Shown here in pieces: positions 24,203 through 60,563 of a DNA stretch of 64,000 bases. This DNA is from Anaerolineae bacterium. Lineage in GTDB: Bacteria > Chloroflexota > Anaerolineae > Aggregatilineales > Phototrophicaceae. How positions within the stretch are numbered: the stretch's first letter is position 1; every line of letters begins with the position of its first letter. The stretch spans positions 1 to 64,000 of the forward strand of contig JALHNT010000019.1 in assembly GCA_022843385.1 (NCBI GenBank). Direction: 5' to 3'. Below the pieces are notes generated by a model that searched no databases, was not told the origin of the DNA, and saw only the letters and a program-made list of their open reading frames with translations. Position numbers and translations under genes: made by a program.

Positions 24203-25372
24203 CTAGAGCTTTACCGGATTACGCAACCGGACAGTTCGATAACCGGTCAACCGGACATATACCCTGCCCTGCTCATCAACCACATCAACATCAAAGTGTT
24301 TACCGTCGTCGATAGGCTGGGCAATTGCGTACAGTCGTTGCCCTTCTGCGTCGGCGGGATCGCGATAGGCAATGACCGAAGCAATTGACAGCGGCAATGC
24401 CAGTGCCCCTTTGGTCTTCATCTCCCAGATGCCAGCTGTCTGAAAAGCCAGTTCGATTAAACGCGGCGACATCAGAGACATCGATTCTGCTGGATGTGTA
24501 TTCGGTGGCAGCCCTTCGGCCATTAAGCCAATGGCACAATCTCCGCTCACCGTTGCCCGCTCCAGCACGTGATAGGCCGGACCATGGAAATATACCTTGT
24601 AAATGTCAGCAGCCATAATTGGCAGTCCATCAGTGAGTGGCTTGAACTCAATGGATGGGAACTCAGGCACATCCTTACCCAACCGAATCTTGGCACGGAA
24701 ATGTGTACGTGTCTGTGTTTCACCAGTCGCAAGAGTTCTCGCTGATCGCAGTTGCACCTGCGCCAAAATAGTCTCAGCATCAACAAGCTGTGGAGTGGCA
24801 GAGAGAAGGAGTGTTTGCGCCTCCATACGATAGAACTTGAACGGACTATCAAACTGCTCCTGTTCTACTGCTAAGACACGATAACCTGGAGCAACCAGCG
24901 CAGCAAGTTGGGCAAAGGCTTCTGTTCCCATTACCCCTGGCAGCAAAGGAGTGCCATCCATCGCATGATCGTACAGGAACGGTTGCACAGTGGGGTCGAG
25001 CGTCGTTTCGACCTGCCACCCACCGTACAGTGGAACGCCGATCACCTTCCCTAGCATGACCGCTGGCGGCACAATGCGTTCCAATTGCTCATTCATGATG
25101 TCAGGATTCAGTCCACCATTGGGATCCAATTCCTGTGTCAGGATGCCGAGCTTGCCGCCCACCAACACCTCACCACGAAATCCCCCAGCAACTAGCTCGC
25201 GTCGAACTGTCGGGATGCCAGACTCAGGTGGAGCACTTCGATGCCGGCCATCTCCATGATCTTTGGAATGGAACCCCGCGTTGCCATCCCAATGCCACCC
25301 CAGGCTGTCCAGTCGATGGCAATCCCACGTGTCTGCGGACGTGTACGACGGAAGGAACTCGTCAACTTGCAT
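24203..25372 (-). CDS. C-terminal part of the megasynthase (KR end and dehydratase domain), frame-shifted from the main ORF
   Basis: Only the part below about 25230 reads as real protein; the first ~47 residues of this frame are an out-of-frame overlap with the KR. From [13 protein letters not shown] on it continues the KR of the upstream ORF, then enters a hot-dog dehydratase domain with the catalytic His in [14 protein letters not shown] (residue ~2678 of the restored protein) and [13 protein letters not shown] as the second-half motif. Restoring one base near 25230 gives a single 24203-32997 gene of 2931 residues. If the frameshift is genuine, this piece would be a separate or untranslated DH. 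Confidence 0.75.
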
Positions 25373-28300
25373 AGCAGGTCGTTAGCGGCACTGTAATCCG
25401 TTTGTCCGCTGTTGCCAAAACGTCCTGCGACTGAACTGAACACGATAGTGGCTGCCAACGGCAAACCTTCCGCAGCTCGCAACAGGTTGAAGAAGCCATC
25501 CGCTTTGACATCAAACACCAAGTCAAACTGAGCTGGATCTTTGTCAGGCAGGGTTCGGCTGATTTCCAATCCACCAGCATGAACCAACACATCAATCCGC
25601 CCGAAACGCTGGCGAATATCGGCCACAACCGCGGTGACACCAACTTCATCCAGCAAGTTCAGGCTGTAGTAGTATGCCACTCCACCAGCTTCCTGCACTG
25701 ACTCAACGGCTCGCAAGGCAGCATCCTGACGTTCGATAGCTGACAGTTGCTTGTCGACTTGCACCGGCGTCAACTTCTCACCGGCTGCGCGAGATTGTTC
25801 AATGATCTGCAACTTGAGAGCATCTTTATCCTTACGGAATAGGGCAATCAGAGGATCATCTGGTGCTGGCAGGGGCGTCAAGTCGAGCAGATAGAATATG
25901 CCCTGACTGGCGGCTGCCAGATCGGCCACAATCGCGCTGGTGATGCCGCCTGCTGCGCCGGTCACGACAAATACCGTGTCAGAATTCAATACCAGACCGG
26001 GTTGACCATCAGCAGCCGGTTGTTCTACGAGCGTGACAGCACAACGCTGTTCATCATAATAGCCCACTTCAACGATGCCCGGATCCGTTAACGTCTCAGC
26101 GATCAGCGCGTCTGCTGGTGCTGCGGCTTTACGGCTGATGGCAAAATCCACCACCTTCACCAGCACATCTCCTCGTTCGCGTTTGTAGGCTTTGCTGAAG
26201 CCGGCCACTGCCCCGCCCAATGGAGCTGTAGCGCCTGCATTGTGATAGCCATGCAGACCACCGAGCCGGGTTGCGCTGACGAGGAACGTTCCAACAGCGC
26301 TGATGCTGTTGTACAGAGTGCGCATCGTCAGATACAAATTCTTGATGCGCTGGCGGTTAAGTTCGCGCCATTGCGCTAAATCCATCTCATTCAATTCTGG
26401 CTCAACATCCAGGGCAGGCAGCCAATACACGCCCTGAATTGGCCCCTCGCTCAACCAGATTTTGAGCTGGCGTTGCAGCTCTGCACCTGCTATTCCAGGA
26501 TCATCTATCGTGAGGGTTGTCACCCCCAGTTTTTCCAGGCGATTGACCAATGCTTTCGCTACCCCATCGCGACACCCCATCACGACGACGCGGCTGGAAG
26601 AGGTCAGTTGGACACCTGTTGGTTTGCACCATTCCAGCGGCGGACGTAGCACAGGTACTGCAACTCGACGAGGGATCCGATCGGCGGCTTCCAGGGAACC
26701 AAGCAAGTGAGAATTGGAGGCAATCGTTTTAGTCGGCTCAGTTTTGTCATTCGGCGAAGATGCAGGCGATTGAGCAACGGGAACAATACTCAGATCAGGC
26801 CGCATCTCCCGCACAAAGCCGATAACCCTCGCCAGAGTCGGATAGTCACGTAGCTTCAGATCATCGCGTCGGGGGATATCGAAGCGGGTGCGGATCGCCG
26901 CGAAGGTCTCAGCCTGCTTGACCGTGTCCACGCCCAGATCTGCTTCCAGATCAAGGTCGAGGTCGAGCATATCAGTCGGATACCCTGTCGCCTGTGACAC
27001 AATCTCCAAAACCGCTGTCACTATTGGGTCAACCGGCATCGCCGCAGTGATCTGAATAGGTGCCGCCTGCGCGTTGGCTGAAGTTGCTACACGTGCTTGT
27101 ACCGATTGAGTCGCCAAATCAGGGCGCATTTCACGCACAAAGCCGATGACCCTTGCCAGAGTTGGATAGTCGCGCAGCTTCAGGTCATCCCGTCGGGGAA
27201 TATCGAAGCGGGTGCGAATTGCCGCGAACGTCTCGGCCTGCTTGACCGTGTCCACGCCCAAGTCGGCTTCCAGGTCAAGGTCGAGGTCAAGCATATCCGT
27301 CGGATACCCTGTCGCCTGTGACACAATCTCCAATACGGCTGCCACTACCGGATCAGCCGTGACCACAACCGGGGCGGCTTGAGCAATCGTTGGACTGTTA
27401 ACCGGAGTCTGTGCCGCTCGTGTCGCTGCCAAGTCAGGGCGCATCTCGCGTACAAACCCGATGACTCGTGCCAGAGTTGGATAGTCACGCAGCTTCAGGT
27501 CATCCCGTCGGGGAATATCGAAGCGGGTGCGAATTGCCGCGAAGGTTTCTGCCTGCTTGACCGTGTCCACTCCGAGGTCTGCTTCCAGATCAAGGTCAAG
27601 GTCGAGCATATCGGTCGGATACCCTGTCGCCTGTGACACGATCTCCAAGACAGCAGTCACTATTGGGTCAACCGGCATCGCCGCAGTGATCTGAATAGGT
27701 GCCGTAGGTGAAGTTGCTACAGGTCCATGTAGCGATTGATTCACAATATCAGGGCGCATCTCCCGCACGAACCCGATGACTCGTGTCAAAGTCGGATAAT
27801 CGCGCAGCTTCAGGTCATCCCGTCGTGGGATATCGAAACGAGTGCGGATGGCCGCGAAGGTCTCAGCCTGCTTGACCGTGTCCACGCCCAGGTCGGCTTC
27901 CAGATCGAGATCAAGGTCGAGCATATCGGTCGGATACCCTGTTGCCTGTGATACGATCTCCAAGACCTGAGCAGTAATGAGATCAGTCGAGGTGGATAAT
28001 GCGGGTGTTGGAGCTTCAATCACAATGGTTTCCATTGTGACTTCGGCCCGGGTCAATGGTGCTGTTTCGACCGATACTGTCGTTTCGATGTGTGCTGGTG
28101 CGCGGGTGTCGATTGCAATTTGGGCTGTAATCTCGGATGATGGATTTATGGCGACTGGTGGTACGACTTGGACTGGCGGCATCAGTCGTTCAACATCAGG
28201 CACAGTCATCCGTTGTGGCTGACTATCGCCAGCGGCAGAAGCACTGTTGCTGCTCAGTGTGCGCTGGTTGGGTGGTGTTCCATAACGCCAGCGATTTGGC

Positions 28301-31300
28301 GCAGGATGTCGAGAGGGAACCCCCTGATCCTGAATGCGCAGCGTACGCTTGCTGACCTCCAGTTGTGCACGATCGTACCCACTCAGTTTATCCAACCACT
28401 GCTGATACAGCGACTTATCGTCTACCCGATCGAGACTTCCGGCGATGCGTCGCGTAAGGGTCATGGCAATTTGTGAGCCAAAGCCCGCCGATAAATGGAG
28501 CGCGTACTGAACGGGGTAGCGTCCGCCTCGACTCAGATTGAGCAGACCCAAATCATGGTCAATCTCTTTGATGTTAGGCACGGGCGGCACAATTCCATGC
28601 TCAAGAATCTTCAGCGCGATGACATCTTCAATGCCCACCCCCATCGGATGCCCAGTGAGCCCTTTGGTATTGGCAATGATGATGTCACTGGCTGCTTCGC
28701 CAAATGTATGACGGAGCGCACTAATCTCAGCAGATGCACTGCCGCCACGAGCCGGCGTATAGGTTTCATGGGACATGAACACGGTTTGTGCGGCCATCGC
28801 CTGACGATGAAGGCCAAAGCGTCGTTCCGCCGTCGTCACCAGGTCATTCATCACCTGATTGATGTGCTGCACATCCAGTCTTGTACCGTGATAGGCACTG
28901 TTGCGGGTTTCGGTGCTGAGGACCTCGACAATCCCGCGCATCCCGCGTTCGCGCACCGCGTCTTCACTCTCGACAACTAGCGCCCCCGCACCCATACCAA
29001 GGATTGTGCCGTGTCGCCGCCGGTCAAACGGCAGCGCCGCCGATTCCACACTGTCATCAGTAGCCGCTGCGCCCGATGCCAGAAAGCCGGAGCCGATCCA
29101 TTCCATCAGATTTTCGCCGGTGACGTTATCTGCCGCTACCACGACCACTCGTTGGCAGCGCCCGGCGCGAATCCAGTCCTCCGCCAGGCCGATCGCCTGC
29201 GTGGTGCTGGCACAAGCAGCATTCACATGAGTATTGGGGCCACGGGCACCGATGAATTCGGCGAACTGACTGTGACCCATCGCCAGGATGCGGAAGATGA
29301 AGCGCCGGTCAAAATCGTAGCGCTCGCGTTCGACCTGTTCGCGTAGATCGTGAATACGTCTGTGTATTTCCTGTAGGGTTTGTGGATCAGAGGTATAACG
29401 CCGTAGATCTTCCAGAAGTTCTAGCCGTTCAACATGACTCTTATAGGTATGGTAACGTGTCAGTTCGTCGGCAAAACGATCAATGCCAGGAAACGCGCTG
29501 GCAAAAATCACGCCGGTGCTGTCACGCAGTGGCTCCGGCAACATCCAGCGATCCGGCAGATGTTTGCCGGTTGTTGTCTGACGATAGGTTTGTACCAGCG
29601 GTATGCCCGCCTCGCGCAGGGCATCGATGCCCGCCGCAATAGCCAACTGGGTAGTGCTATCAAGGGCTTCAATCATCTTTTCCGGGACACCATATTCCTC
29701 GGCGAGATCGAACAATCCCGGCCGTCCAGCCAGCTTGATGACCTCGTCACCTTCTGTGATCGTTTCAAAGCGGTTGTTACCATCTTCAGATTTCACCAGC
29801 CGCGTGATGCGCTTGGCAATCATCCGTTTGCGGAAGCGCTCCGGGATGAGATCAATGAGCTGTTCGCCGCGCAAAATGCGGGCAACGTTCTCTTCATCCA
29901 TAACTCGCTTTTCCGCGCCGGGTAAGCCTAGGCCACTGCCGCTAATCACCACCGAGCCAGAAACAGGCGAGTCGAGGCGTTGGGCTGCCGCGGCAGGTGC
30001 AGTTTGGTTGTGCATTAATTCATGTACAGCATGGATAAGGATCTGGTTGAAAGCCTGCATCGAGATACTGCCATCGTCAGAACGGGTTGGATTTGCCATA
30101 GGCGTTTCACTCACTTCAATAGTCACTTCGGGTGGTGGAACGACAGCCGGAACGGTCGCATACCCGGCGGCATACAGTCCACACAGGGCTTGATTGAATG
30201 CAGCCAGATCGCCAGTCTTGGGATGATTTGTCAGCAAGGAGAGAATGTCAGACTGCTGGGCGAAGACATCATCAACAAAGCCCTTCAATGCGCGCTTGGG
30301 ACCGACCTCAACAAATATTCGCGCACCGGCCTGATAGAGCGTTTTCAACCCCTTTACCCATTGTACCGGCGAGGCGATTTGCTCCTGGAGAATATCCTTA
30401 ATGCGATCAACCGACCGTGGGTAGAACTCGCCGCTGACATTGCCGATGAGCGGAAGTTGTGGCAGCGCAATCCGAGATCGATCCAAGACCTGCCGCAATG
30501 GTGCGCTGGCTGGAGCGACAATGCGGGTATGAAATGCATGACTCACGGGCAACCGCAGCGCTTTGTATCCGCGTTCGGTAAAGAGATCAACAGCCTGCTC
30601 AACCGCTTTGGTTTCGCCACCAATCACAGCCTGACTCTCACTGTTGATATTGGCTGGGACTACATAGCCATCCACCCGTTTTAGGATAGCTTCGACCTCG
30701 GCCAGCGGAGCAATCACCGCCGCCATCGCCCCATTATCTGCCACTTCAATCTTGCTCATTTCACTGCCCCGCGCCGCAGCGGCTTCCAGTGCGTCAGCGA
30801 ACGGCATCACCCCGGCAGCGATCAGGGCGGCATATTCGCCCAGCGAATGCCCCATCACCATGTCGGGTTTGAAGCCATAGGCTTCTAATAGGCGCAGCAG
30901 CGCAATATCCAGCGTGAGCATGGCTGGCTGGGTGATAGCTGTTTGCATCAGATCGATTTCGGCCTGGGCATCAGGCGAGTCCATGAAGATAAAGGCAGTC
31001 AACGGTTTGCCGAGGATGGGCGTCATGATGCGGTCTGCTTCAGCGAAGACCTCCGCCACAACTGGGAAGGTCTGGGCCAGTTCACGCCCCATGTTGATGT
31101 ACTGACTGCCCTGCCCCGGAAAAAGAAAGACGACCTTACCAGGCGTTTCGCCGCTGCGTCGGAAGATACCCTGCGATTGCAGTGGTTTCCAGGCGGCCAG
31201 ATTGTCAAAACCCATCGCCTTCTGTGCGGTCTGAACGCGGTGCAGCAGTTCGTCATGATCGCCATAATCGATGACCAGACGCTCTGGTGCACGAATCTCT

Positions 31301-32997
31301 AACGGGTCTGGCAGTTGAGGTGGTGGCGTCCAGCCATTCTGGATGCGTTCGATCAGGCGATCCACTTTATCTTTGAGCGCCGTCGCTGTCCTGGCACCTA
31401 GAGCGAGGATGCCGCGTGGCGGCGCAGTCAGGCGAACCGGCGGAGCATCCAGCACTGATGCCCGAACGGGATTAAGGGTAGTCTGAACATCTACCCCGGC
31501 ATAACTGCGCCGGTTGCTCGTCAATTGCCCGGGCTGATGCTCTTCCATCACAATATGAAAATTCGTACCCCCAAAGCCATAGGCGCTCACACCGCAACGA
31601 CGGGGTGTCCCATTAGCCTTTTCCCACGTCTCAGCCTGATGAATCAGGCGAAACGGCGTTTGGGCGAAATTGATATTCGGATTCGGGCGATCCGCGTTAA
31701 GTGTCGGTGGCAGTATGCGATGATGGAGCGCGAGCGTCGCCTTCAATAAACCGGCGGCACCAGCTCCAGCCTTTAGATGACCAATATTGCTCTTGACTGA
31801 TCCCAGGCCGATTCTGCCTCGTTGCGCCGAGCCGTAAATCTGGCTCAGGCTCTCGACTTCAACCACATCGCCAACACGGGTGCTGGTGCCATGTGCTTCG
31901 ACCAGCGTGGCGCTGGCCGGTTCCAGTCCGGCATTCTCCCAGGCACGCTGCACCGCATACTGTTGACCCGCCGGGTTTGGCGCGGTAATCCCTTTGCCTT
32001 TCCCATCGCTGGAACCGCCTACCCCACGTATCACTGCGTAAATCTTGTCGCCCGCCCGTTCAGCATCTTCCAGTCGTTTGAGGATGAATGCGGCTGATCC
32101 CTCACCCATGACAAAACCATCTGCGCCTTCACCAAATGGCCGACTGCCAGTCGCGCTGAGTGCGCCGATCTTGCAGAACTTAATGAAGGTCGAAACACCC
32201 ATGTTGCGGTCAACGCCACCTGCGATCACGGTATCGACATGATGTTCGGTTAGCATCTCGACAGCGGCATTGATGGCTGCAAAGCTCGAGGCACAGGCGG
32301 CATCGGTGATGAAGTTAGGCCCATTCAGATTGAGGACGTTGGCGACACGACCAGAGACGATGTTGGGCAGTTCGCCAGGCATCGAGTCTTCAGTGATATT
32401 GGGGAACTGCTGCTCAATCACCTGGTGCCATTGTTCCAGCACCGCTTCTCGCTGGGCTGATGACAGACGGGCAAACTCGCCGCTGGCTTGCAGGGCGCGG
32501 GCATATTCCGGGAACATCGCGCGCAGATGCGTCTGGTAGTGAAGTTCTCCCCCCATCGCTGTGCCGATGATGACCGCCGTGCGCTCGGTGTCCAGCGGAC
32601 GCTGTGGGTAGCCGTAATCTTCCAGCGCATCTGAAGCAATCGACAAAGCCCACTGCTGTCCGGGGTCCATTGCGGCGGCGACTTTGGGGGGTATCTTGTA
32701 GCGTTTCCAGTCAAACTCAAAATCCCGCACCCAGCCGCCGATAGTGCTGTAGGTCTTGTCTGGGACGGTGATATCCGGATGATAATAATCGGCAGCTCGC
32801 CAGCGGTTCTCCGGGACAGGCGTAATGCTGTACCGCTTATCCAGGATGTTTTGCCAGAATGCCGAAACAGTTGGCGCATCCGGTAAGATGCAGCCCAACC
32901 CTACAATGGCGACGGCGCGCTCGGCTTTGCTTTCCATAATCGCGGCGCTGATGGAATGCGCCTCTCCCCCTCTGGTTGGATTAACTGGCTTTAGCAA
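25192..32997 (-). CDS. PUFA-synthase-like type I megasynthase, KS-AT-KS-ACPx4-KR
   Basis: Domains of this 2601-residue ORF: KS1 ~28-470 (Cys235 in DAACASS, His369 in EAHGTST, His407 in NIGH); AT ~615-920 (Ser718 in GHSLGE, His823 in SHAFHT, suggesting malonyl-CoA); KS2 ~1050-1510 (Cys1262 in NAACAST, His1410 in SHETYTP, His1450 in GLTGHPMG), closer in motif to FAS-I ketosynthases; four carrier domains ~1670-2075 with LGVDTVKQ, Thr1707, 1812, 1917 and 2025 in place of the pantetheinyl Ser; KR ~2270-2590 (VTGAAGGIT, Tyr2535 in DYSAAND). The ORF ends out of frame; a missing base near 25230 separates it from the DH. No ER is present. Overlaps the acyl-CoA dehydrogenase stop by 17 bases. Product unknown; probably an iteratively built fatty or polyketide chain. 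Confidence 0.88.
25229..25232 (-). other. Apparent single-base deletion (frameshift) in the megasynthase
   Basis: On the minus strand GAAGTGCTCCACCTGAG would read E-V-L-P-P-E with one additional C (CTCCCACCTGAG), joining the KR to RRELVAGG and the DH domain. The site is a short C run, a usual place for sequencing error. Confidence 0.75.
26800..27980 (-). repeat. Four tandem carrier-domain repeats
   Basis: Four ~230-base units with ~315-base period, very similar at DNA level (blocks such as GACCGTGTCCAC are invariant), encode the ACP-like domains. Linkers between them are Ala/Pro/Val-rich and differ. This is coding DNA and not an array of independent repeats. Confidence 0.9.
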
Positions 32998-54410: not shown

Positions 54411-57167
54411 ATGGCGACAAAAGATCTCTTCATATCGTACTCTCGCCGAGACAATACGTTTGTCCGTAAATTGCATGAATCACTCAAGCAATCCGGACGT
54501 GATGTCTGGGTTGATTGGGAGAATATTCCGCTTACAGCGGAATGGATGGAGGAAATTGAACGAGGAATAGAAAACGCAAATGCACTCGCGTTTGTGATTT
54601 CGCCTGACTCGGTAGCGTCTGAGATATGCACCAAAGAACTTGCTCATGCGATCAATAACAATAAGCGTCTGGTTCCGATTCTCTACCGCGAATTGACACG
54701 TGAAGATCAGAAATCACTTCATCAATCACTCTCTGCCCATAATTGGATATTCTTTCGTGAAAATGACGACTACCAGAGTTCATTTCAGGCTCTAACAAAA
54801 GCCCTGGATACTGATCTGGAATATGTGCGTGATCACACAAGGCTCTTGACTCGCGCTATCGAATGGGATCAAAAAGATCGGGATCGCAGTTTCCTGTTGC
54901 GTGGAAAAGATCTGCAGAATGCTGAAGTTTGGTTTGAGAAAAGCGCGAACAAAGAACCCAAGATTACGGAACTACAGAAAACGTACATCTCAGCAAGTCG
55001 CCAGGCAGAAAACTGGCGACGACGTGAGCGTATTTTGAACAGCATCATTACACTTGCGTTAGTCGCTACGATCGTTGCCCTGGGCATTGCCTATTGGCAA
55101 TTCACTCTCGCCACAGAAGCCAGTGCAAAAGCACAGCAACTATCCCTTGCGGCCAACGCTCAAGTTGCTTTAACCAACTACAATCGAGATTTGGCGCTGG
55201 CACTCGCCCTAACCGCAAATCGCACCGGACAGCCGCTGGGCGAAACAGAAAGAGCGCTATCAGATGCCGCATACAATCCTGGTACGCAGCTTGTATTCAG
55301 CGAGCATACTGGTGCGGCGAATGCGGTAGCTTTCAGCCCAGATGGGACATGGGTTGCATCGGGTTCAGGTGACAACAGTGTTCTCGTATGGAATCTCCAA
55401 ACGGGAACTATTCTCCACAATTTACAGGGACATACGAGACCGATCAAGAGCATTGCCATTAGCCCAAACGGATTAATGATCGCATCGGGCGATGAAGAAG
55501 GTGCAATACACCTATGGAATGTTGCGGATGGCAATTCGATTCGAGTTCTAGCGGGTCATGGCATGTCGGTGCGATCCTTGAAGTTCAGTGCTGATAACGA
55601 TCTCCTCCTTTCAGGCTCCGATGATAAAACAGCACGTATGTGGCAGATTGAAAGTGGTGAATCGACAACACTTTTCGAAGCCAATGGATCGGTGTTTGCC
55701 GTATTGTTTCATCCTTTAGATCAAACAGTGCTTGTCTTTGCTTTGGACACCCCCCCTACCCGCTGGAATGCAACTACAGGTGAAAACATCCGTGAATATT
55801 CCAACCAACAGGTGACAGGTCAGATCAATTTGGATGTTGGAGCCGCGGCGATTACCCCTGATGGCGAATATGTTCTTTCGGGTTGGGGAATCGAACTCCG
55901 CCTGTGGAGTCTCGATACTGGCGAGACCGTCCGTTCAATGGCTGGACATGGTAGCTACGTCAATAGCATCAGTATCAGTCCTGATGGCACATATGCATTA
56001 TCGAGCGCTCGACGAGAGAACAGTATCCGAATGTGGCGTATCAGCAATGGTGAAGAAATCAGTCGATTTGAAGGGCATCGCGGAGTAGTTCAAAATGTGG
56101 CAATCAGTGCATCTAATGGACGCTATGCCCTGACTGCTTCTGTTGATACAACCGTGCGTTTATGGGATCTTGCGAATGGTGCCGAAGTGAAGGCATTAAC
56201 CGGACCCAGCGGTGACATCTATGGAGTTGCCTACAGTCCTATAGCGGATACTGCTGTTTCTGGCGACACAAAGGGTGAGATATGGGTATGGGATATAAAT
56301 AGTGGGCAGGCTATCACGTCATTCTCAGCTCATGAAGGAACCATTTGGAGCGTAGCCTATAACCACGATGGGACACAGGTTCTGACCGGCAGTGCGGACA
56401 AAACAGCATGTCTCTGGAGTAGTGAGGCATGGGAAAAGTTGCGTTGTTTTGGCCCTCATGATAGGGAAGTTACAAGTGTCGCTTTTGGCCCTGATGGTTC
56501 AACCCTTCTGACAGGTTCTAATGACCAGATGATTCGGCTTTGGGATACGACTACAGGCGACTTATTGCGCACCTACGAAGAAACAGATGGTCAATTGCGA
56601 TCATTGTTCTTCAATGCTAGTGGAACTCAATTCCTGGCAGGCGCAGATCATGGTCGTCTGATTGAAGTCGAAACGGGTAGTGTTTTGCTCAGATTAGAAG
56701 GTCATTCAGACCGAATTAACAGCATTGCATTTAGCCCAGATAACCGTCAGATTGTGACTGGATCTGGTGATGGCTCCATTCGATTGTGGGATGGCACAAC
56801 TGGCACAACACAGAGAGTCTTTGAGGGGCATACGGGACAAGTAAGGTCAGTAGCCTTCAGCCAGGATGGGCTACGGATTTTGTCCAGCTCGGCTGATGCC
56901 ACACTGCGCTTGTGGGACACACGGACTGGTCTAGAAGTACGCCGCTTTGAGGGGCATCGAGAGTGGATCAATCAAGCCGTCTTCAGTCGGGATGGTCATT
57001 CTGCTCTCAGTGGTTCATGGGACAATACACTGAAACTCTGGCACATACATACCCTTCCAGAATTGATTGCCTGGGCTACAGATAGTCGCTATATTCGTGA
57101 CCTGACCTGTAATGAACAGCGCATTTATCTGGTTGAAACAAGCGTAACGTGTCCACCGAACTCCTGA
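54411..57167 (+). CDS. TIR domain - transmembrane helix - WD40 repeat protein
   Basis: The 918-residue protein has an N-terminal TIR domain (~4-135: DLFISYSRRDNTFVRKL, VWVDWENI, SPDSVASEICTKELAHA with Glu76 in the position of the NADase Glu), a helical linker, one membrane helix at ~208-228 (SIITLALVATIVALGIAYW), then WD40 repeats from ~285 to ~895. I count about 14 blades, two of them degenerate (TRWNA, GRLIEV), enough for two seven-blade propellers. The TIR would be cytosolic. TIR-WD40 proteins are usually viewed as sensors, some with NADase activity. It is followed after 24 bases by the NTT-HEAT-CNB gene. Confidence 0.88.
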   Translation: MATKDLFISYSRRDNTFVRKLHESLKQSGRDVWVDWENIPLTAEWMEEIERGIENANALAFVISPDSVASEICTKELAHAINNNKRLVPILYRELTREDQKSLHQSLSAHNWIFFRENDDYQSSFQALTKALDTDLEYVRDHTRLLTRAIEWDQKDRDRSFLLRGKDLQNAEVWFEKSANKEPKITELQKTYISASRQAENWRRRERILNSIITLALVATIVALGIAYWQFTLATEASAKAQQLSLAANAQVALTNYNRDLALALALTANRTGQPLGETERALSDAAYNPGTQLVFSEHTGAANAVAFSPDGTWVASGSGDNSVLVWNLQTGTILHNLQGHTRPIKSIAISPNGLMIASGDEEGAIHLWNVADGNSIRVLAGHGMSVRSLKFSADNDLLLSGSDDKTARMWQIESGESTTLFEANGSVFAVLFHPLDQTVLVFALDTPPTRWNATTGENIREYSNQQVTGQINLDVGAAAITPDGEYVLSGWGIELRLWSLDTGETVRSMAGHGSYVNSISISPDGTYALSSARRENSIRMWRISNGEEISRFEGHRGVVQNVAISASNGRYALTASVDTTVRLWDLANGAEVKALTGPSGDIYGVAYSPIADTAVSGDTKGEIWVWDINSGQAITSFSAHEGTIWSVAYNHDGTQVLTGSADKTACLWSSEAWEKLRCFGPHDREVTSVAFGPDGSTLLTGSNDQMIRLWDTTTGDLLRTYEETDGQLRSLFFNASGTQFLAGADHGRLIEVETGSVLLRLEGHSDRINSIAFSPDNRQIVTGSGDGSIRLWDGTTGTTQRVFEGHTGQVRSVAFSQDGLRILSSSADATLRLWDTRTGLEVRRFEGHREWINQAVFSRDGHSALSGSWDNTLKLWHIHTLPELIAWATDSRYIRDLTCNEQRIYLVETSVTCPPNS

Positions 57168-57191
57168 TTCACAATTGAATGGATTTAGGCT

Positions 57192-60100
57192 GTGAAATTG
57201 AATATTCGAGCCGAGGAATGGCCACGATTTCGTGCGCTATTTTTGAGCTTTTTCCTGTTCACGATTGGCCTTGTATGGGCGGGTAACACTCTACGTGCTG
57301 AGTTGGTCAACATCAGCATGGCATTTTGGTCACAAGCGCAACTGATCAGTGCAATTGTGGTGATTGTCATTTCCGTTCTGTATACCGCCTATGTTGATCG
57401 CATCTCAAAAGATCACATGTTCGTGGTGATAAATGCTCTGGGTATTGTTTTTGGATTAGCAAATGTCCCACTACTCATCTCCTCAGATGTCAGACTCCAG
57501 GCAATAGGTTTTTTGCTCCTTTGGGTACTTTATCAACTGCTTTTCTATATATGGATTATTCACTGGGGCACCTACATTATTGATCAGTATGATAGTCAAT
57601 CTGCAAAGCGGATATTTCCGCTGTTGGGTGCAGCTCGTCCACTTGCCACTACTTTTGCTGGTGTTGTGTACAGTCTATTGGTGTCATTTCTTCAGCTCAA
57701 TACGCTTGGCGTTCTGGTTGCATGGGTCGCTCTTCTTGGTGCAAGCTTTCTCTTTTTGTCGGGTAGCAATAGACCCTCGGCATCAGTTATTGACCACTCG
57801 AAATCAATTAAGTCCCCTGTAGCTTTTTTGTCAGAAGGTATCAAAGCAGTATTTGCATCACATTTTGCGAGGTGGATGGCAATAGCTGCATTACTCGTAA
57901 TTGCCATCAATACACTAACCGAATATCAGGTCAGCTTGCTCTTACGCGAACACTTTCAAGACAGCAGCGATCCAGTTCGCAATTTCAGCTCATTTACTGC
58001 ACAAATTGAAAGCCTATCGAATATTGTTGCCTTTGTTTTTCAACTGTTTATCTTTGGTGAGATCACCAAACGAGTCAATCTTGGCAACATGAATCTCATT
58101 TATCCGACTGCGCTGATTCTCTCGACCATGGGACTAGTCACCCTGCCCGGTGTGGCAACCGCTGCAATAGCCTATGTGACGATTGGAGCCTTTCGACGGA
58201 TTTTCCGTGATCCAGTTATTGGATTAATGGCAAATGCTACTCCTGCACAGACTCGTGGACGAAGTCGTGCGATCATCAATGGAGTCATCTCGCCAGCGGG
58301 AATGGTAATTGCATCGTTATTCCTGCAGATCATCCCGCTACTGGGGATCTCTTGGCTATTGCCAGCACTGTTGATCTTGCTGGTCGGTAGCCATCTGGTA
58401 GTGGCGCTGGTACTGAAGCGCGAGTACGCTACAGCAATCGTGACCTTGTTGAAACGAGAGAACACGAGTTTCTTGCTGACCTACAACGAAGATGTTAGTG
58501 CCCAGGAACTTGGATTCAGCGACAAAACAAAATCTCAGTGGATCGTTGAACGAATTAGTAAGACAAGCGATCAGGATTTGCAAGTGTTTCTCGCGCAGAT
58601 TCTGTTAGAAAGTAACGGAAGGACCGCCATCCCACCACTCATAGGACTGGTACGGACGCTGCCTCCAACCAATCAAGCCGCCATTCTCGATATGGTGAGT
58701 TCACATTCTTTCCGCAGTCAGGAATTGACCAACCTGTATGCTGAAATGACACTTTCTAAGTTCGATCAATTGCGACAAATCGGTATCCGTGGTTTAGGGC
58801 AGATCAGGCGACATGATCGCGCCTGGATGCAGCAAGCATTCGAGAGTTTGAGCGACACATCGCCACTTGTTTTGGTGGAAGTTATCCCTTATCTGATGAA
58901 TAGTTCACAAGAGACTTATCGAGCATCAGCTGAGAAAGCCTTACAACGACTGACGAGTAGTAAGACAGATCAGGATCATCTGCAAGCAATAAACATCATC
59001 AGGCAATTGGGTGATGTGAATCAGATCATTAGCTTACTCCGTTTCCTCAAATCGAAAGACAATCAGGTACGACTGCAAGCAACCACAGCCATCAATGCCC
59101 TGCTAAAGACGAATGTTCCCCCACCCATCGTCCGGCAAATTAAGACGTACATTCCCGAACTGCTCAGTGATCCCGTAGAAGCAATCCGATTGGCTGAGTT
59201 GCGGATGTTGTCCAGCATCCCGTCCCCCGAAGCCTATGATGCTCTAATTATGGCCTTGAATGATCGCGCCAGGAGCGTCAGAGATGCGGCGTTGCAACTC
59301 ATTGTACGTGTCGGAGACCCCATAATCCCACGTCTTGAAGATGGTATGCGAACCCGGAGGGATGAAGCGGGTAATATGTTTGCCGTGGCTCTGAGCAAAA
59401 TCAACAACGATGCTTACCGTCACCTCGTCATCGAGCGCATAGATGACGCCTTGGATAAGATTGACACGTTCCATCAGTTTCTCGAGTTACTATCACCATT
59501 CCGATCATTTGCCAGCATACATATCCTGGAAAATGATCTCCAGATTCAAACTAAACAGAGAATTAATCAGATCTTTTTTCTATTGACCGCATCACGCGAT
59601 GAAGCTTCAGTCAAAGTCATTCAAGAATCTTTGGCGAGCCGTGATCCACGTCGTCGCGCAGATGCAGTTGAGGCACTAGAATCGCTGACATCTCCGCAAT
59701 TGGCTCATCGAATTATCCCTCTATTGAGTGTCCAGACTCCGCGCATCGCCACAACCGCAACGGATGGCATCAGCGCTCAGGGTTTGCAACCCGGTATGGA
59801 GCTCCTGCTGAGATTTGCTACTGGAGAGGACGTGTGGTTTCGGGTAATTGCCATAATCGCCTTTGCAGAGCTAGCCCAACAACATCCTGATTTGAAATTG
59901 CAGTATCCAGATGTCAACCAAGATACGGTGACAACCGCGTTCAAAAGTATCGACATCCGAAAACTGTTGATAGCAGTTCGGGCGTCGACAGCGAGTACCG
60001 ATATTGATGTTCAGGTTGCTGCACGGGCCGCAATTCGCATGATACAAGGGCAGACCATTACCCATCGAATGAGAGAAAAGGAAAACGCATCGATGTTGTC

Positions 60101-60563
60101 CATAGTCGAGCGCATGATTATGCTGAAACAGATCTACCTGTTCGAGTCCATTCCAGTAGATCAATTGCGTGTATTGGCAAGTATTTGTGACGAAGAGTTC
60201 ATCACACAGAATACGATTCTGTTTCGCGAAGGTGACCCTGGTGGAAAGCTCTATGTTGTCGTCGAAGGAGTCGTCAAGATCGGTGTTTTGGATAATGGGG
60301 GCAATCACTTCACTCAACTGGCTCGTTATGAGGGCATTTCTGCGTTTGGGGAGTTAACCCTTTTTGAAAACAGCACCCGATCGGCTACAGCCATGGCTGA
60401 GACTGATGCCGTGTTGTTGGGCATTCGCAATGAGGCCATTATCGTCCTCATTCGGGAACATCCAGATCTGAGTATTTCACTCCTGGGAACACTCAGCAAC
60501 TATCTGCGCACAGCCAACAATCGAGTGGCAGAGTTGATTACCAATCCATCTCAGGCGGTCTGA
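57192..60563 (+). CDS. NTT-type nucleotide transporter-like - HEAT repeat - cyclic-nucleotide-binding fusion
   Basis: The 1123-residue protein (GTG start) has an N-terminal domain of about ten to twelve membrane helices (residues ~10-420) resembling ATP/ADP translocase-like (Npt/NTT) or MFS folds, with DSQSAKRIFPLLGAARP. HEAT-type helical repeats follow (~440-960). A cyclic-nucleotide-binding domain ends the protein (~980-1105: LFREGDPGGKLYVVVEG and cassette FGELTLFENSTRSAT, with the Glu and Arg that hold the cyclic phosphate). Such NTT-HEAT-CNB fusions are known in bacteria, with unknown function. Operonic position after TIR-WD40 suggests a joint role. Overlaps convergent GNAT gene by 13 bases. 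Confidence 0.82.
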   Translation: MKLNIRAEEWPRFRALFLSFFLFTIGLVWAGNTLRAELVNISMAFWSQAQLISAIVVIVISVLYTAYVDRISKDHMFVVINALGIVFGLANVPLLISSDVRLQAIGFLLLWVLYQLLFYIWIIHWGTYIIDQYDSQSAKRIFPLLGAARPLATTFAGVVYSLLVSFLQLNTLGVLVAWVALLGASFLFLSGSNRPSASVIDHSKSIKSPVAFLSEGIKAVFASHFARWMAIAALLVIAINTLTEYQVSLLLREHFQDSSDPVRNFSSFTAQIESLSNIVAFVFQLFIFGEITKRVNLGNMNLIYPTALILSTMGLVTLPGVATAAIAYVTIGAFRRIFRDPVIGLMANATPAQTRGRSRAIINGVISPAGMVIASLFLQIIPLLGISWLLPALLILLVGSHLVVALVLKREYATAIVTLLKRENTSFLLTYNEDVSAQELGFSDKTKSQWIVERISKTSDQDLQVFLAQILLESNGRTAIPPLIGLVRTLPPTNQAAILDMVSSHSFRSQELTNLYAEMTLSKFDQLRQIGIRGLGQIRRHDRAWMQQAFESLSDTSPLVLVEVIPYLMNSSQETYRASAEKALQRLTSSKTDQDHLQAINIIRQLGDVNQIISLLRFLKSKDNQVRLQATTAINALLKTNVPPPIVRQIKTYIPELLSDPVEAIRLAELRMLSSIPSPEAYDALIMALNDRARSVRDAALQLIVRVGDPIIPRLEDGMRTRRDEAGNMFAVALSKINNDAYRHLVIERIDDALDKIDTFHQFLELLSPFRSFASIHILENDLQIQTKQRINQIFFLLTASRDEASVKVIQESLASRDPRRRADAVEALESLTSPQLAHRIIPLLSVQTPRIATTATDGISAQGLQPGMELLLRFATGEDVWFRVIAIIAFAELAQQHPDLKLQYPDVNQDTVTTAFKSIDIRKLLIAVRASTASTDIDVQVAARAAIRMIQGQTITHRMREKENASMLSIVERMIMLKQIYLFESIPVDQLRVLASICDEEFITQNTILFREGDPGGKLYVVVEGVVKIGVLDNGGNHFTQLARYEGISAFGELTLFENSTRSATAMAETDAVLLGIRNEAIIVLIREHPDLSISLLGTLSNYLRTANNRVAELITNPSQAV

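Follow-up and report, generated by a model that had tools for sequence, protein, structure and literature searches.

The window under study, the first 64,000 nucleotides of contig JALHNT010000019.1 from an Anaerolineae bacterium (assembly GCA_022843385.1; Chloroflexota, Phototrophicaceae), carries on its forward strand two adjacent genes, of which the first encodes a receptor-like protein with a TIR domain, a transmembrane (TM) helix, and WD40 repeats (P0001), and the second a protein joining a nucleotide-transporter (NTT)-like membrane domain to HEAT repeats and a cyclic-nucleotide-binding (CNB) domain (P0002). We propose, with a probability of some 45%, that P0001 and P0002 constitute a co-inherited membrane signalling unit composed of a receptor and an NTT-like membrane output. 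This linkage is suggested by the occurrence of the same pair in another genus, by the congruent sister placement of the two proteins in two trees, and by the presence, elsewhere, of WD40 receptors of another make upstream of P0002 homologs; from these observations we infer that the two proteins are functionally coupled.

The P0001 gene (54411..57167; 918 amino acids, aa) begins with ATG and is separated by 24 bases (57168..57191), in which a pattern scan listed no terminator-like site, from the P0002 gene (57192..60563; 1123 aa), which begins with GTG, the spacing being exactly that given in the first-pass annotation of this DNA. Both open reading frames (ORFs) are long and are matched by homologs over their full length, and genome G456 contains the pair as well (G and L numbers denote the genomes and loci compared), which takes the two frames beyond chance. 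Among 98 genomes searched within the family, five close P0002 orthologs were retrieved, including that of the window. The one in G456, a genome of the same family and another genus, belongs to an orthologous pair with the same order and strand, in which a TIR-TM-WD40 protein of 947 aa, sharing 48.7% identity with P0001 along almost its entire length, is encoded 125 bp upstream of a P0002 ortholog of 1143 aa with 36.5% identity. Between 40–64 kb of the window and the 17-kb locus of G456 no other genes in common were found (E ≤ 1e-6). In trees constructed from a subset of the rows, P0001 was sister to its G456 counterpart with a support of 97/92 (bootstrap/SH-aLRT) and P0002 to its own with 100/99; fuller quick trees were also made, the next relative of P0001 being L243, a second TIR-WD40 protein of G456. 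The simplest history would be that of one ancestral pairing that either persisted along two diverged lineages or travelled as a unit, and the conservation of the same pair in another genus points to a joint function of the two proteins.

The order-level search, covering 154 genomes, gave 12 close P0002 orthologs, the window's among them. In four of these the gene immediately upstream, on the same strand, is a WD40 gene, at distances of 24, 125, 98, and 109 bp, the last two distances corresponding to the long WD40 genes of G488 and G499. The G488 protein, which is complete, contains a protein kinase, an nSTAND1 domain, one TM segment, WD40 repeats, and a C-terminal periplasmic-binding-protein domain; in G499, whose contig is the named record L090, the start of the WD40 gene is cut off and the WD40 and binding-protein domains are seen. 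In G437 a WD40 gene is also located upstream, separated from the carrier by a 384-residue gene and a short frame; its start is cut off, and its kinase-like and P-loop motifs were recognized by eye only. Receptors of this second type lie at L270:533-10210 (complete), L271:1966-7450, and L241:5505-15998, and the TIR-juxtamembrane profile weakly matched those of G437 (E 1.3e-7) and G488 (E 4.6e-7). The presence of this other kind of WD40 receptor at the same place means that the recurring partner may be a WD40 receptor and not the TIR as such. In G488, moreover, a stand-alone second CNB gene follows the carrier at 10 bp.

On a wider count, five of 56 NTT-HEAT-CNB loci (the window, G456, G488, G499, and G080) had an upstream WD40 gene within 600 bp, the 56 being those that passed a stricter carrier profile (1e-60), with 7 of 63 loci excluded for having distant carrier genes; among those seven, only L139 had a WD40 match, and it lies on the opposite strand, downstream of the carrier. 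Eight named loci duplicated G loci and were dropped, and L271 and L273 were omitted as copies of L090 and L092. The WD40 gene of G080 has, as judged by eye, an nSTAND-type start and is separated from the carrier by a small opposite frame. In random stretches from five of these genomes, with overlapping stretches counted once, no gene had a WD40 gene upstream, whether under the immediate-neighbour rule (0 of 276) or under the 600-bp rule (0 of 258), and Fisher's test yielded p values of 1.8e-6 for the 4/12 and 1.6e-4 for the 5/56. In the other orthologs of the order, the gene upstream is a histidine kinase in G021, a MinD-like ATPase in G042 and G502, and an unrelated overlapping gene in G500, and G030 and G041 have divergent genes there; in G040 the start of the carrier gene is cut, and its probable first half is on a different contig, where a sensor gene precedes it. 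The carrier's neighbours are thus of several kinds, with WD40 receptors recurring among them. A MinD/ParA-like ATPase gene, identified from its P-loop by eye, was also observed directly upstream of the NTT-HEAT-CNB homologs in L050, L088, L089, L092, L148, and L159.

As to the receptor itself, the first-pass annotation had described P0001 as a membrane-anchored TIR-WD40 protein with a Glu at position 76, which description was borne out by the domain searches. The TIR domain (residues 7–128; 54429..54794) matched TIR_2 (PF13676) with an E value of 9.4e-28, and its Glu76 (codon 54636-54638) lines up with a Glu in the NAD hydrolase AbTIR (chain 8g83), which we take to be the catalytic Glu of that enzyme; the column holds E in 59 of 60 aligned family members. 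P0001 accordingly has the Glu that marks NADase-type TIR domains, and NAD+ cleavage is, at the most, a predicted activity. There follow a juxtamembrane region delimited by the family alignment (about residues 137–207; 54819..55031), a single TM helix (residues 208–228; 55032..55094) with a mean hydropathy of 2.19, and the WD40 repeats (about residues 290–890; 55278..57080), detected as 10 stretches of PF00400. Five K/R residues are present in the 15 positions preceding the helix and one in the 15 following, and a K/R excess on the N-terminal side was found in 53 of 56 full-length TIR-TM-WD40 family members, with ties in the remaining 3; by the positive-inside rule, this distribution would place the TIR domain in the cytosol and the WD40 propeller outside. 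The receptors of the other type end in a Peripla_BP_4 domain (Pfam), which domain is usually found outside the membrane, and its position behind the propeller supports the same orientation. A single-sequence structure model of P0001 was set aside for its pLDDT of 39. Under the topology so predicted, P0001 is similar to the Toll-like receptors in having the sensor outside, one TM helix, and a cytosolic TIR; in those receptors, however, the domain order is the reverse and leucine-rich repeats stand where P0001 has WD40, the likeness being one of layout and not of kinship.

For P0002, the earlier attribution of the membrane part to the NTT carriers, known chiefly from plastids and intracellular parasites, proved right though not obvious. 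The protein alone gave no match to PF03219 (TLC) in Pfam, only a sub-threshold one to MFS_1, and the TLC cut-off was reached by 4 of 8 scanned relatives. Nevertheless, in an AF2 model (pLDDT 78.4, pTM 0.66) compared by Foldseek with 350,542 PDB chains, the best match of P0002 was AtNTT1 (9j3l_A; E 1.8e-7, TM-score by target 0.73, rmsd 4.0), with 17% identity in the structural alignment. In addition, profile A8, built from the membrane part of P0002 and 10 relatives (4 of whose 11 rows themselves match TLC, which helps), matched in the PDB, at E values up to 10, NTT chains only, namely those of AtNTT1 and Chlamydia pneumoniae NTT1 (E 7.2e-26 and 1.1e-22). Fold and profile thus support kinship of the NTT-like domain (about residues 1–420; 57192..58451) with the NTT/TLC ATP-ADP carriers, from which P0002 differs, apart from that low identity, by its long HEAT-CNB tail. 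In the LVEVTWK segment, the Glu is matched in the alignment by a Glu in the NTT family consensus, and D69 and R140 are among the charged residues invariant in an alignment of 14 sequences.

The remainder of P0002, which the first-pass annotation had read as HEAT repeats followed by a CNB cassette with intact Glu and Arg, was recovered as such by Pfam. The HEAT-repeat region (about residues 445–950; 58524..60041) matched HEAT_2 (PF13646; E 4.3e-14) and is helical in the model; the CNB domain (about residues 976–1117; 60117..60542) matched cNMP_binding (PF00027; E 7.2e-15), its PDB matches being CRP-type regulators and PKA regulatory subunits. Family alignments locate in the latter the phosphate-binding cassette FGELTLFENSTRSAT (60345..60389), whose E1054 and R1063 are invariant across six sequences and, in a wider family of 59 rows with distant members, are occupied by E in 54 and by R in 39, respectively. 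P0002 accordingly has the Glu and Arg that distinguish functional domains binding cyclic nucleoside monophosphates (cNMP), and ligand binding can be predicted. Nine class III cyclase matches in the window's genome (G000) count in favour of the signalling unit. A hint of a cNMP input comes also from DUF2652-type genes directly upstream of three distant P0002 relatives (L131:6055-7137, L134:6006-7127, L136:8971-10071), assigned by Pfam for L134 and by homology for the others: their profile bore a weak resemblance to the class III cyclases in the start region (hhalign probability 41%), and the DUF2652 protein had no match in the PDB. The named P0002 relatives belong mostly to Anaerolineae and other Chloroflexota.

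Fusions of an NTT with HEAT repeats and a cyclic-nucleotide-binding domain (cNBD), in the same order as that found along the single P0002 chain, are known from cyanobacteria, other bacteria, and oomycetes (Major, Embley and Williams 2017, PMC5381601). In the portions of that work available to us, NTT-HEAT fusions are presented as widespread and uncharacterised, a cNMP-adjusted ATP transport is suggested, and no receptor partner is described; P0002, for its part, has diverged enough to miss PF03219. Among open-licence papers, a literature search retrieved none joining a WD40 receptor or a TIR-WD40 protein with an NTT-HEAT-CNB protein, and the WD40 receptor partner is what would be new here, the NTT-HEAT-cNBD fusions themselves being already known.

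If the two proteins do form a unit, P0001 would be a receptor with Toll-like-receptor topology and P0002 the membrane output, an NTT-fold carrier with a cytosolic HEAT arm ending in the cNMP-binding domain. The propeller might sense a ligand or damage, upon which the TIR domains would be brought together, and the clustered TIRs would either cleave NAD+ or only act as a scaffold; then, through contact with the HEAT arm or through a nucleotide read by the CNB domain, the NTT domain would change state, and nucleotides would start or stop crossing the membrane. A broader reading, possible although on the whole doubtful, is that of an undescribed bacterial receptor/carrier system in which WD40 receptors with exchangeable heads—a TIR, or a kinase plus nSTAND, on a common propeller, TM, and juxtamembrane build—control a neighbouring cNMP-gated NTT-type carrier. 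Were this system real, an outside signal would alter the passage of NAD+ or nucleotides through the cell membrane, a bacterial layout resembling that of Toll receptors would be wired to nucleotide traffic, thus joining TIR chemistry to the NTT carriers, and the conserved receptor partner would give the uncharacterised NTT-HEAT fusions a signal-response role amenable to testing.

A number of results weigh against the signalling unit. The TIR partner is present in only 2 of the 12 close P0002 orthologs of the order, and no close ortholog was found in 16 genomes of the same genus. P0002 relatives adjoin histidine kinases, dCache-GAF sensors, MinD-like ATPases, acetyltransferases, acyl ligases, or divergent genes, several of these neighbours having been named by eye. 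No NTT-HEAT-CNB gene adjoined any of 40 other TIR-WD40 loci, nor did a carrier of that type adjoin L243 in G456. The G456 intergenic region (L240:9550-9674) contains a terminator-like hairpin with a U run (z −1.79), which another terminator scan did not list, so that a single transcript is not assured there. The orthologs are related to each other, and if the WD40 cases are taken as two lineages the p value becomes 0.001; the random control, furthermore, contained only 2 long WD40 genes. None of the ten neighbouring genes scanned around the pair was of a defence type. Finally, the RDTKD segment of the plant and chlamydial NTTs, another point of difference from those carriers, is not kept in the P0002 alignment.

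The scarcity of the TIR partner and the variety of neighbours of P0002 relatives, along with the 57 TIR_2 matches and 11 TIR-juxtamembrane profile matches of G000, would be expected if a TIR-rich genome had merely set one of its many TIR-WD40 genes next to a carrier unrelated to it, and if the G456 pair were a synteny, inherited or transferred, without functional meaning. We consider such a chance neighbourhood unlikely, in that only these two genes are common to the surroundings of the pair despite a divergence to 49% and 37% identity, and a WD40 receptor of a different type is found repeatedly in that position, against 0/276 and 0/258 random genes. The missing RDTKD segment favours, in turn, a carrier that has lost transport, whose NTT part would serve as a receptor or scaffold and, together with the HEAT repeats and the CNB domain, form a cNMP-responsive platform for receptor heads; sensor-type genes are indeed frequent beside P0002 relatives, and HEAT repeats are usually protein-binding. 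The NTT fold of the P0002 model is nevertheless intact, and charged residues such as D69 and R140 are invariant, which leads us to regard this loss of transport as improbable and to retain the receptor with its membrane output.

With respect to a second pair elsewhere, initial searches of 61 and 396 genomes gave none among the loci whose flanks were fetched, 19 low-scoring ones among 63 matches listed being left out of that flank check; it was the fuller search of the family (98 genomes) that brought the G456 pair to light. The 40 TIR-WD40 loci cited above are the better-scoring part of the matches of a separate search, minus the window, G456, L131, and L134; near the TIR-WD40 gene of L195 there was one weak CNB-type match, which was not an NTT-HEAT-CNB gene. 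The conserved co-occurrence that the first-pass annotation had proposed to examine was consequently upheld in part: the pair is not adjacent only in the window, yet it is rare, and other phyla were covered by one scan. L131 and L134, in which a TIR-WD40 gene lies near a distant P0002 relative, were rejected as instances of the same pair, the TIR gene belonging there to an operon of another composition. That operon, of family f34, encodes a C39-like peptidase with SH3, a TIR-TM-WD40 protein, a SLATT-type protein, and a TPR-S protein (L134, L200, L204, L205, L209, L211, L226, and L233). The SLATT-type gene was directly 3' of the TIR-WD40 gene in 8 of 11 flank-fetched f34 loci, the contig ending first in two others, and one of the eight was confirmed as SLATT_1 by Pfam.

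These f34 loci bear on the possibility that the window pair is a defence unit of the abortive-infection type, in which the TIR would deplete NAD+ or make a signal and the membrane protein would be the effector, as predicted for SLATT. Kaur et al. (2020, PMC7159879), in the parts of their work accessible to us, predict that SLATT acts as a nucleotide-responsive pore effector and already describe SLATT proteins next to TIR-type enzymes; the P0001 homologs of f34 adjoin just such a membrane protein, and the P0001 TIR matched defence TIR models in PADLOC. The window pair, in contrast, has no SLATT gene but the NTT-HEAT-CNB protein in its place, its neighbours are metabolic, regulatory, or unassigned, and the Thoeris and TIR-retron models matched P0001 far below their cut-offs, so that we hold a defence unit of this kind to be decidedly unlikely. 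The defence-island neighbours for which the initial sequence reading had proposed to look were not found among the ten genes scanned, and a defence role of the pair is at most a possibility. Pycsar CNB-TIR and Thoeris systems likewise combine TIR and cyclic-nucleotide domains, although their matches were weak and, unlike in Pycsar CNB-TIR, the CNB and TIR of the window are on separate proteins. Thoeris was rejected, the ThcB4 model having scored 28.3 bits against a cut-off of 220 and no ThsA being present among the ten scanned neighbours; Pycsar was rejected because no cyclase was present among those 10 genes.

The ten flanking genes include Pfam matches to Creatininase, a PAS_6/HTH_22 regulator, Peptidase_M20, E1_dh, transketolase, Rieske, DUF4432, and MoCoBD_2; one more gave a sub-threshold match to GNAT, and another matched no Pfam family. 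On this assemblage a defence island at this locus was rejected. The flanking creatininase gene had no match at E ≤ 1e-60 in 10 genomes of the same genus and 6 of the same order. The genome as a whole (7.85 Mb in 117 contigs) displays an expansion of TIR_2 domains extending far beyond the pair locus, and the window contains, on the reverse strand, a reading frame of 2601 aa (25192-32997).

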